Translations under genes and position numbers: made by a program
Notes under the pieces: generated by a model
What the model was told of the DNA's origin: nothing
Database searches by the model: none
Seen by the model: only the letters and a program-made list of their open reading frames with translations
Origin: Chryseobacterium lacus
GTDB lineage: Bacteria > Bacteroidota > Bacteroidia > Flavobacteriales > Weeksellaceae
Length of the DNA: 64,000 nucleotides
Direction: 5' to 3'
NCBI RefSeq assembly: GCF_003336205.1
Contig: NZ_QPIE01000005.1
Coordinates: 62,001 to 126,000, forward strand
In this document: positions 2,930-59,674 of the stretch, piece after piece
How the letters are laid out: each line of letters starts with the position of its first letter
How positions within the stretch are numbered: the first letter of the stretch is position 1

Positions 2930-3038
2930 ATCTTCAAAGATATTTAAAAATTGAAAAATCTCTTAATAAAATCAATTGTTTTTATCGTTTTTGTTGATAA
3001 CTCATCTCCTAAATCTTCACTTTCTTGCGTCAATTTTA

Positions 3039-56795: not shown

Positions 56796-56825
56796 TTGAT
56801 TCATCATTTAAATTTTATATTTTTG
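56796..56825 (+). promoter_or_regulatory. Promoter of the coiled-coil-zapA operon
   Basis: TTG at 56796-56798, a 19-nt spacer and TATTTTTG at 56818-56825, 29 bp before the ATG at 56855. Confidence 0.65.
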
Positions 56826-56854
56826 CTTAAATGTTAGAATTTTAAAAACCTGAA

Positions 56855-57157
56855 ATGCTCAAAGATTTAGAACAACATTTTTTGGAACTGGAAAACAGAA
56901 TTGCGGCAATTAGCAAAAATTATCAGTCGCTTTCCAAAGAATATATCGCTCTAAATGAAGAGCTCCAAGAACTGAAGGAAAAATATGATGAAGAGAGAAA
57001 AAAAAATCAGGTATTAGCAGAAGAACAAAAAAATATAAAACTTTATTCAGCAATAGCAGGAAATCCGGAACATAACAGGCTGATGAAAAACCACCTGAAC
57101 CGCCTCATCAAAGAAGTAGATTTCTGCATTGCCGAACTTCAAAACAGCGGATTGTAA
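56855..57157 (+). CDS. Small coiled-coil protein coupled to zapA
   Basis: A 100-residue protein that is almost all coiled coil from residue 5 to 65 (LEQHFLELENRIAAISKNYQ, EYIALNEELQELKEKYDEER, KKNQVLAEEQKNIKLYS) followed by a short alpha-helical tail (MKNHLNRLIKEVDFCIAELQ). Its stop TAA overlaps the zapA ATG (TAATG). The coiled coil plus the fixed neighbour suggests a division-ring accessory comparable to ZapB, but this is inference; there is no evident sequence identity with ZapB. Confidence 0.8.
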   Translation: MLKDLEQHFLELENRIAAISKNYQSLSKEYIALNEELQELKEKYDEERKKNQVLAEEQKNIKLYSAIAGNPEHNRLMKNHLNRLIKEVDFCIAELQNSGL

Positions 57158-57444
57158 TGGATGTAAGACGAATTACCATTAATATTGCAGGAAGAGTATA
57201 CCCGCTGAATGTTCCCGCAGCAGAAGAAGAAACACTGCGCAAAGTCGGGAAGCAGATTGAACTCATGATTAAAGATTTTGAACAGAATTTTGATGTGCGC
57301 GACAAGCAGGATGCTCTTGCGATGTGTGCACTGAAACTGGGAACCAATGCAGAAGTAACTGCGCTGGCCAATGAAAACAATATTAAAGCTTCCTCCGAAC
57401 GGCTGAAAAAAATCAACCAAAACCTGGAAGCACTGGAAAAGTAG
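57157..57444 (+). CDS. zapA: Cell division protein ZapA
   Basis: A 95-residue protein. RRITINIAGRVYPLNVPAAE and EETLRKVGKQIELMIKDFEQ are the ZapA globular head; the C-terminal coiled coil is NENNIKASSERLKKINQNLE. As a tetramer it bundles FtsZ filaments at mid-cell. It is coupled to the coiled-coil gene before it by the TAATG overlap and precedes a structured RNA 22 bp after its stop. Confidence 0.88.
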   Translation: MDVRRITINIAGRVYPLNVPAAEEETLRKVGKQIELMIKDFEQNFDVRDKQDALAMCALKLGTNAEVTALANENNIKASSERLKKINQNLEALEK

Positions 57445-57466
57445 ATTTTTCTTTTCCAAAAAACTG

Positions 57467-57634
57467 CCTACAATAGTTCTAACACATTAAAGGTAAACTC
57501 AACGCTAAACAATTACCGAACAAATGTCCTTTGAATGGCGTGCCGCATTTTGCGGATTACAGACAAAGGAAATCAGTTCAAATCGTGTTGATTAGGAGTT
57601 TACTCTTATCACCTGAACTGTTGTAGGTTTTTTT
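57467..57634 (+). ncRNA. ssrS: Structured RNA, candidate 6S RNA
   Basis: No protein frame fills this gap. A long rod can be drawn: CCTACAATAGTTC (57467-57479) pairs with GAACTGTTGTAGG (57615-57627, one G-U); GTAAACTC (57493-57500) with GAGTTTAC (57596-57603); CAACGC (57500-57505) with GTGTTG (57585-57590, one G-U); TCCTTTG (57527-57533) with CAAAGGA (57564-57570); apical hairpin CCGCA-TTT-TGCGG (57543-57555). Internal loops between them give the open-bubble shape of 6S RNA. The closing stem is followed by seven T, so it ends as an intrinsic terminator. 6S RNA binds RNA polymerase. In gammaproteobacteria ssrS is also next to zapA. Length near 168 nt fits. Confidence 0.75.
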
Positions 57635-57709
57635 ATGAAAAAATAGGGACCATCGTGTGATCCTTAAGAACTTAATATCAAAATATTTAGAAATAAAAAC
57701 TTAATATAT

Positions 57710-59281
57710 ATGACACTTACCACTATTATTATCGGCTTTGTAGCCTTGGCAGCAGGAATTCTCATGGGGCTGTTATTTTCCAGAAGCAGCCTCAATACAA
57801 AAGCTAAATTTATTATAGAAGATGCCAAGAAAAACGCTGAGAATATCATAGAAAACTCCAACGTAAAAGCAGAATCCGTAAGAAAAGAAAAAGAAGCTCA
57901 AGCCAAAGTGAAATTTTTGGAACTGAAATCACAGCATGATACCGAAATTCAGAATCGGGAAAAGAAAATTCAGGAAATTGAAAAACGCATCCGCGATAAA
58001 GAACAAAAGCTGAATGATGAATTGAGCAAAACCGGAAAGCTGGAAAAAGATCTGGATAGACAAATTGCCGATTATGCCAAAAAGCATGAAATTCTGGAAA
58101 GAAAACAGGAAGAATTGGAGACCATCACGACGCAGAAAGTGGAAATCCTCGAAAAGCTGTCACATTACACTGCCGAAGAAGCCAAAGCCGAATTGGTAGA
58201 AGCCATGAAAGCAGAAGCCAAGACCAGAGCGCAGGCACACGTGCAGGAAATCATGGAAGAGGCTCAACTGAATGCGAAAAGTGAAGCCAGAAAAATAGTA
58301 ATTCAAACCATCCAAAGAATCGGTACAGAGCAAGCCATTGAGAATTCTGTTTCTGTTTTCAATATCGAATCGGATGAAATAAAAGGAAGAATTATCGGAA
58401 GAGAAGGGCGGAATATCCGTGCCTTGGAAGCCGCAACAGGCGTAGAAATTATTGTGGATGATACTCCGGAAGCTATTTTGCTTTCCTGTTTCGATCCGGT
58501 GAGAAGGGAAGTCGCCAGGCTTTCACTCCACAGATTGGTGACAGACGGAAGAATTCACCCTGCAAGAATAGAAGAGGTGGTGGAAAAAACCAGAAAACAA
58601 ATCGAAGAAGAAATTATAGAAGTCGGGAAAAGAACGATTATAGACCTCGGAGTTCACGGGTTACATCCCGAACTAGTGAAAATTATAGGGAGAATGAAAT
58701 ACCGTTCCTCTTATGGACAAAACCTGTTGCAGCACTCCCGCGAAGTAGCCAATATCGCTGCAACGATGGCTGCAGAACTGGGATTAAATGTGAAACTCGC
58801 CAAAAGAGCCGGGCTGTTGCATGATATAGGAAAAGTGCCGGAACAGGAATCCGAACTTCCACACGCACTTTTGGGAATGCAGTGGGCAGAAAAATATGGA
58901 GAAAATGCAGAAGTCGTCAACGCAATTGGTGCGCACCATGACGAAGTGGAAATGACTTCTTTATTATCACCGCTGATTCAAGTTGCGGATGGTATTTCCG
59001 GAGCAAGGCCGGGAGCAAGACGTCAGGTTTTGGAATCGTATATTCAAAGACTAAAGGATCTGGAATCCACTGCCATGAGTTTCGACGGCGTTTCGAGTGC
59101 TTATGCCATTCAGGCCGGGCGTGAACTGCGCGTGATGGTAGAAAGTGGAAAAGTGACTGATGAACAATCGCACCAGCTTTCCTACGATATTTCGGAAAAA
59201 ATACAAAATGAACTCACCTATCCCGGACAAGTGAAAGTAACGGTCATCCGTGAAACCCGTGCCGTGAATATTGCAAGATAG
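57710..59281 (+). CDS. rny: Ribonuclease Y
   Basis: A 523-residue membrane-anchored endoribonuclease. An N-terminal helix is at about residues 3-24 ([21 protein letters not shown]); a coiled coil covers about 30-190 ([20 protein letters not shown]). The KH domain is [21 protein letters not shown] and the HD domain has [20 protein letters not shown] and [14 protein letters not shown] (H371, D372). It starts mRNA decay by endonucleolytic cutting. The 265-bp interval to zapA holds the 6S-like RNA, and a terminator follows the gene. Confidence 0.94.
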
Positions 59282-59333: not shown

Positions 59334-59674
59334 GTGGAATAATAGTGCCCGAATTAATTCCAAAAATCTTATTGAGCCAACTATAGTGGAGACGTTATAA
59401 AGATTGAATGATTATCATTTCAGCTGATATAATAAGAAAGAATAAAAGAACAAATCAGTGTAGAAGTGATTTATTTCAGCTTATTGTCGGCTCTTTTTCA
59501 AAAAAAAGAAATGTACAACCCTCTATTTTGCTCAAAAAGTTTACATTTGTAATACTGGAATAAAGCGATTCAGTGGTGACTAAAAAGAACTGTTTCGTTT
59601 CCTTTTCATCACTTCTTGCCAATTCCCTAAAACTTTTTTTAAAAATAAAATTATAACCTTATTAATTAATAATT
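59334..59674 (+). other. Long intergenic region before the amidohydrolase
   Basis: About 340 bp without a credible frame. It includes the perfect palindrome AATGATTATCATT (59407-59419), a full -7 match TACATTTG (59542-59549) that would give a leader of about 120 nt, and stretches of AT-rich sequence. No transposon or RNA fold is evident. The palindrome could be a repressor site. Confidence 0.4.

Follow-up and report, generated by a model that had tools for sequence, protein, structure and literature searches.

The gap between zapA and rny in a 64,000-nt stretch of Chryseobacterium lacus DNA (hereafter the window) encodes a true 6S RNA that belongs, as a divergent member, to a known kind. Our explanation as a whole, in which this RNA is also transcribed and acts as set out below, is in our judgment very probably correct. 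A preliminary description had placed a 6S-like rod at 57467-57634, in a gap free of protein code, and had named it 6S from its shape and its neighbours. The coordinates are correct, and no listed open reading frame of at least 60 aa lies inside the zapA-rny gap; of the two antisense reading frames that flank it, one ends at 57459 and the other begins at 57664. Both neighbouring genes are confirmed by their Pfam domains (Table 1), and a zapB-like gene that overlaps the start of zapA is found in the same place in relatives from the host family.

On the plus strand, the 168 nt fold into one unbranched rod with a minimum free energy of -54.3 kcal/mol, against a mean of -29.95 for 200 dinucleotide shuffles, none of which folds as well (z -6.75). 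The rod runs from a 13-bp closing stem (P1) through an internal loop, a 9-bp stem (P2) and a central bubble (nt 35-51 and 114-129 of the RNA) to an apical stem that is interrupted and capped by a closed hairpin; the RNA ends in UUUUUUU. Its length and its parts are those of the 6S class, in which rods of 160-200 nt carry a closing stem, a large central bubble and an apical arm. The long rod with a closed apical hairpin thus holds up, and its structure is far beyond chance, since covariation preserves the stems among relatives. The terminator-like end of the preliminary description turns out to consist of P1 and of the U-run behind it, which the host family conserves; the two would together form the intrinsic terminator of the RNA. 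The reverse strand folds as well (z -5.28), as any rod would, and the U-run as well as the relatives and models single out the plus strand.

Table 1. Features of the zapB-zapA-6S-rny region, in window coordinates
Feature	Position	Strand	Details
Perfect Bacteroidota -7 box TATTTTTG	56818..56825	+	Predicted single promoter of zapB-zapA-6S-rny
GTTAGAA in operon leader	56833..56839	+	Complementary to 57477-57483; a few nt after the -7 box
zapB-like small coiled-coil protein	56855..57157	+	100 aa; PF06005 E 0.0042, weak, below cut-off
zapA	57157..57444	+	95 aa; Pfam PF05164 E 1e-15
6S RNA gene	57467..57634	+	168 nt including U-run; R1 match spans 57465-57636
Closing stem P1, 5' arm	57467..57479	+	Pairs with 57615-57627
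TTCTAAC in 6S 5' arm	57477..57483	+	Top of P1 and internal loop; complementary to leader motif
Stem P2, 5' arm GGUAAACUC	57492..57500	+	Pairs with 57596-57604 GAGUUUACU
Central bubble, 5' strand	57501..57517	+	Fold; contains U 57506 (RNA nt 40)
Interrupted apical arm, closed hairpin (GCCGC AUUUU GCGG)	57518..57579	+	Fold and covariation
Central bubble, 3' strand AAAUCGUGUUGAUUAG	57580..57595	+	Fold and alignment
Stem P2, 3' arm GAGUUUACU	57596..57604	+	Fold and alignment
Closing stem P1, 3' arm	57615..57627	+	Fold and covariation
U-run after P1	57628..57634	+	Conserved T columns in alignment A1 (host family)
rny, RNase Y	57710..59281	+	523 aa; RNase_Y_N PF12072 E 1.5e-28, plus HD and KH domains

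At Rfam gathering scores, no family matches anywhere in the window. When the 4227 families were searched against the gap by E-value instead, the two top-ranking ones were both Bacteroidota 6S families, each aligned at full length on the plus strand. The 6S-Flavo RNA (RF01685; Weinberg 2010, PMC2864571) scores 53.8 bits (E 6.8e-8, positions 1-108 of 108), and Bacteroidales-1 (RF01693; Rfam description: '6S-Bacteroidales RNA suggested') scores 51.9 bits (E 1.1e-7, positions 1-179 of 179). The window RNA reaches neither gathering score (85 and 60 bits, respectively). The RF01685 alignment contains four non-standard pairs and keeps AUUA, GCCGC...GCGGAU and GGAGUUU, with the consensus core and the stems retained; the window RNA shares with 6S-Flavo the phylum and the core motifs ACUCAAC...CUAA, GCCGC/GCGGAU and GGAGUUU. 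Unlike the 6S-Flavo RNAs of Rfam, the window branch lies outside the Rfam seed, and the closing stem that the window RNA possesses is missing from the Rfam model, which spans only 108 nt. RF01685 finds a match in 49 of 59 relatives, exactly one in each of the 35 that belong to the same family, and since none of the 59 reaches 85 bits, this cut-off excludes the whole branch. The missed thresholds weaken membership as Rfam defines it, not 6S identity. Further matches to MIR8562, hsp17, bxd_4 and SSRC8_2 are due to chance, as they are far under their cut-offs and mostly on the other strand.

Among relatives, compensatory changes preserve the pairing of the stems. In an alignment of 26 host-family members that was not fitted to the structure (A1, the source of our model R1), 18 of the 41 predicted pairs vary on both sides and 98.6% of cells are paired, a level reached by none of 500 shuffles, while slid controls are 33-45% paired. 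A set of 40 members from across the class, gathered with R1, has 37 of the 41 pairs varying on both sides and 92.1% of cells paired (0/500 shuffles); this second alignment was fitted to the structure and so leans towards it, and the unfitted A1 agrees with it. In the class-wide alignment, every pair of the P1 helix (14/14) varies on both sides somewhere, with 96.4% of cells paired. R1 scores the window RNA at 204.7 bits, with the window sequence among those it was trained on, and R2, the class-wide model, whose training set leaves the window sequence out, scores it at 162.5 bits (E 7.6e-27). A minus-strand match of R1 in the window (44.5 bits, against 204.7 on the plus strand) is what a near-palindromic rod is expected to give.

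The RNA is nearly universal and normally single-copy in the host family, as is expected of 6S RNA: R1 detects it in 215 of 216 genomes, and in all 206 that are near-complete. R1 also extends to Bacteroidales, where it detects Bacteroidales-1 RNAs in two genomes (E 1.8e-8 and 1e-6). The window RNA is therefore tied to Bacteroidales-1 in both directions, since R1 finds RF01693 members and RF01693 in turn matches the window at full length. The 6S name is thus supported by both Bacteroidota 6S models, by covariation and by near-universality. At one locus (L196, genome G488) there are two R2 matches (E 7.8e-17 and 5.8e-6), the second of which is possibly a second 6S copy or an assembly duplicate.

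The connection to canonical 6S RNA (RF00013, SsrS) runs through intermediate genomes. Run directly on the window sequence, RF00013 gives no match. Among 296 genomes from the outer classes of the phylum, 52 have RF00013 matches that stay below its cut-off (the best at 42.3 bits, E 2.9e-7), and R2, which was built without these RNAs, coincides with RF00013 in L079-L089 and L106. In L084, R2 matches at 1504-1710 (E 8.2e-7) and RF00013 at 1501-1707, and R1 alone matches this locus too (E 0.0024); the other coincident places include L080, L081, L086 and L106. Homology to RF00013 is seen in these places shared with R2 and R1, not in the window sequence itself. As one RNA in one gene order is recognised by both models, there is good evidence for taking the flavobacterial rod to be the same gene as SsrS. 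The window RNA resembles SsrS of E. coli (ssrS) and 6S-1 of B. subtilis in its closing stem, in the distance of about 35 nt between the 5' end and the central bubble, and in its interrupted apical arm. It differs from SsrS in its downstream neighbour, which is rny rather than ygfA or an EVE gene, and its host has a different housekeeping sigma factor and -7 box.

Gene order supports the same relationship. All 49 loci with an RF01685 match were taken from our first search of relatives, two of which end at a contig edge; zapA lies upstream in 48/48 and rny downstream in 48/48 where the contig reaches. All 30 fetched outer-class loci with an RF00013 match sit just upstream of rny, Pfam identifies the gene preceding 6S as ZapA in all four loci that were tested, and several have the order pheT-zapB-like-zapA-6S-rny, with pheT inferred from reading the translation. 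A scan guided by an alignment of Rny added named genomes of several phyla to the comparison, among them seven Deltaproteobacteria/Myxococcales with a canonical RF00013 6S RNA above the cut-off, all upstream of rny. In five of them (L139, L131, L141, L164 and L169), zapA lies on the other side of 6S from rny (in L139, zapA ends at 2355, 6S occupies 2462-2649 and rny follows at 3001); in L173 and L183, no zapA was recognised beside 6S. R2, applied to 76 loci in an unbiased search, gave 27 matches at E <= 1, and all 27 are on the rny strand immediately before rny. The rny loci examined in Firmicutes carry no zapA.

The window RNA thus occupies the same place as the RF00013 RNAs of other Bacteroidota classes and Deltaproteobacteria, and it adjoins zapA as SsrS does in beta- and gammaproteobacteria, where the order is zapB-zapA-ssrS (PMC7641849). 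The preliminary description had left it undecided whether the position beside zapA was an ancient link or a chance parallel, and the occurrence of zapA-6S-rny in other Bacteroidota classes and in Deltaproteobacteria/Myxococcales decides for an ancient link. This is most simply read as a single ancestral zapA-6S neighbourhood, and the link between a division gene and a polymerase-silencing RNA is very old, since it is common to Bacteroidota, Deltaproteobacteria/Myxococcales and beta/gammaproteobacteria. The literature that we searched, which did not extend to a 2014 survey of 6S RNA, holds no earlier description of the zapA-6S-rny order, and the depth of this link appears to be among the new parts of this work.

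The order is broken in places, and these places bear on whether the RNA could instead be a cis-regulatory leader or attenuator of rny that does not act in trans. Such a role would suit the terminal U-run of this RNA and its place immediately before rny in 48/48 testable relatives. However, the RNA persists away from zapA-rny in 8 of 30 class-wide loci, among them Bacteroidales-1 members (the RF01693 members found in Bacteroidales are, unlike the window RNA, beside neither zapA nor rny), and Bacteroides and relatives (L145, L147, L151, L158, L172) keep zapA-rny with a gap that has shrunk to about 95-110 nt and lacks the RNA. Homologues are, moreover, expressed as 6S RNA in Bacteroides, where product RNAs of two classes are made (PMC7366714), and in Flavobacterium psychrophilum (PMC9723704). 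We regard a leader of rny as very improbable, and a trans-acting 6S RNA as the better account. The zapA-rny gap that remains in the five loci of Bacteroides and relatives folds better than shuffled sequence, with z from -2.4 to -6.2.

In 6S RNA, the central bubble mimics an open promoter and traps RNA polymerase carrying the housekeeping sigma factor, and synthesis of a short product RNA frees the polymerase. By this model, the central bubble of the window RNA would imitate an open promoter, bind polymerase with the housekeeping sigma factor, and block it at ordinary promoters as growth slows; synthesis of a short product RNA on the bubble would then release the polymerase. Within this lineage, the model draws direct support from relatives, namely from the expressed 6S RNAs of Bacteroides and F. 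psychrophilum and from the product RNAs of the former (PMC7366714, PMC9723704). The AAACUC of the P2 5' arm leads into AAACUCAAC, the best-conserved stretch of the RNA, which forms the 5' strand at the passage from P2 into the bubble, and this strand is the expected template. The U at 57506 is nearly invariant in the host family, and we take it to be the counterpart of U44 of E. coli 6S RNA, the predicted template base for position +1 of the product. The predicted product RNA would accordingly begin opposite 57506 and read 5'-AGCGUUGAGUUUACC. A scan of the bubble for a mimic of the TAnnTTTG-like -7 box gave no convincing candidate.

A polymerase-binding rod could also be of the Ms1 kind, which binds core RNA polymerase without sigma. 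Ms1 is likewise a long rod, structurally related to 6S RNA (PMC9130861). Yet it is reported from Actinobacteria, another phylum, and beside other neighbours (PMC9130861), whereas the covariance and positional links of the window RNA go to 6S families; no sequence or covariance link to Ms1 was seen. In addition, product RNAs arise from the 6S RNA of Bacteroides (PMC7366714), and their synthesis requires that transcription start on the RNA. An Ms1-like RNA is hence scarcely credible here, slightly less so even than a leader of rny, and sequestration of the housekeeping holoenzyme, as by 6S RNA, is the reading we retain.

How the RNA is made is suggested by the distribution of the Bacteroidota -7 box, TAnnTTTG (PMC7366714, PMC9723704). 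A perfect box lies 31-39 nt before zapB in all 26 host-family genomes (2.85 expected). The same box is found before 6S in two of the 26 and between 6S and rny in none of them, and on the plus strand of the window the next perfect box after 56818 is at 59542. Because a consistent perfect box is present only upstream of zapB, zapB-zapA-6S-rny look like one transcription unit, from which 6S is probably carved. We propose that one promoter upstream of zapB would drive the whole transcript, that cutting of this transcript would make the 5' end of 6S, that the closing stem and U-run of the RNA would set its 3' end, and that rny would be expressed by read-through past the 6S terminator. This -7-box pattern appears to be a new detail.

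The alternative is that 6S has a promoter of its own just before 57467 and is not fed from upstream of zapB, as in E. coli, where ssrS is transcribed from its own promoters. A box matching at five of six positions, TAGATTTT, overlaps the zapA stop codon, and boxes of this quality occur within 60 nt before 6S in 20 of 26 family genomes (13.5 expected, maximum 19), with the perfect box just before 6S in two. The imperfect boxes may include a weak promoter of 6S. Those two stand against 26/26 upstream of zapB, and the perfect or best boxes before 6S lie at varying distances from the RNA start (-18 to -33). A dedicated 6S promoter is therefore unlikely in our view, if a serious competitor, and processing from the zapB-zapA-6S-rny transcript is preferred.

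The zapA stop codon is also straddled by a stem-loop, TGGAAAAG-TAGATTTTT-CTTTTCCA, at 57434-57458, and relatives have stems of different sequence about 10 nt ahead of the 6S start. We do not put the hairpin (TGGAAAAG/CTTTTCCA) forward as an element, its mean fold z of -0.83 being no better than the -0.74 of the coding stretch upstream. With fold z-scores that are not significant, it is possibly a processing signal or the 3' end of zapA.

The leader of the unit contains a further feature. In the window, its GTTAGAA is the exact complement of TTCTAAC in the 5' arm of 6S. Of the 490 cells that the seven core positions make up in 70 distinct leader/6S combinations, 488 are paired, compared with a mean of 479.9 and a maximum of 484 in permutations; the sequences were anchored by the motif, kinship inflates the permutation results, and there are few independent double changes. 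The exceptions to the common pair are nine double changes, nine one-sided changes to wobble and two breaks. Eight of the double changes are T-A to C-G in genera g22 and g28, probably one event, and the ninth is in L033, from another family. In some genera, matching changes lengthen the pairing (GAGUUAGAA/UUCUAACUC in g17), which extends to 15 bp in L229, and a formal count over 33 combinations, likewise anchored by the motif, found 93.3% of positions paired versus 27-42% for slid versions. Genus g15 (L039, L224) has a divergent 6S 5' arm, GUUUUGUGCAACACA, and a divergent leader, GUUAAACAAAAC, which are again largely complementary. Outside the host family, the pairing is clear only in three single-genome families of the order (L004, L006, L033), and it is not clear in Flavobacteriaceae proper.

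A stable duplex between the leader and mature 6S was rejected, as cofolding brings no gain and the pair probability is 0 in the 805-nt precursor. If the complementarity reflects RNA pairing, then, as folded 6S gives no gain in energy, that pairing has to take effect while P1 is still open, on the nascent transcript, or be assisted. We also rejected the motif as a general promoter feature (four occurrences in the genome versus two for the reversed pattern); the other three genomic occurrences show no clear link. Alternatively, the match may be a DNA site that is present twice, in inverted orientation. The complementarity appears to be among the new parts of this work, as a lead and not as a result. 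Pairing of the leader GUUAGAA (and its extensions) with UUCUAAC of 6S might provide feedback among 6S, zapB/zapA and RNase Y, through a transient structure of the nascent transcript that would time 6S folding or processing, or through 6S acting in trans on the leader of its own operon. We hold this feedback to be doubtful, somewhat more so than a separate 6S promoter.

These findings bear on how 6S RNA is found in this branch and on what its position may mean. The branch falls under every Rfam cut-off, so pipelines that use those cut-offs leave the gap empty, and the position of the gene can be used to locate 6S where sequence fails. If 6S is indeed processed from a zapBA-rny operon, and if the leader pairs with it, a single unit would couple cell division, the shut-down of transcription and RNA decay.
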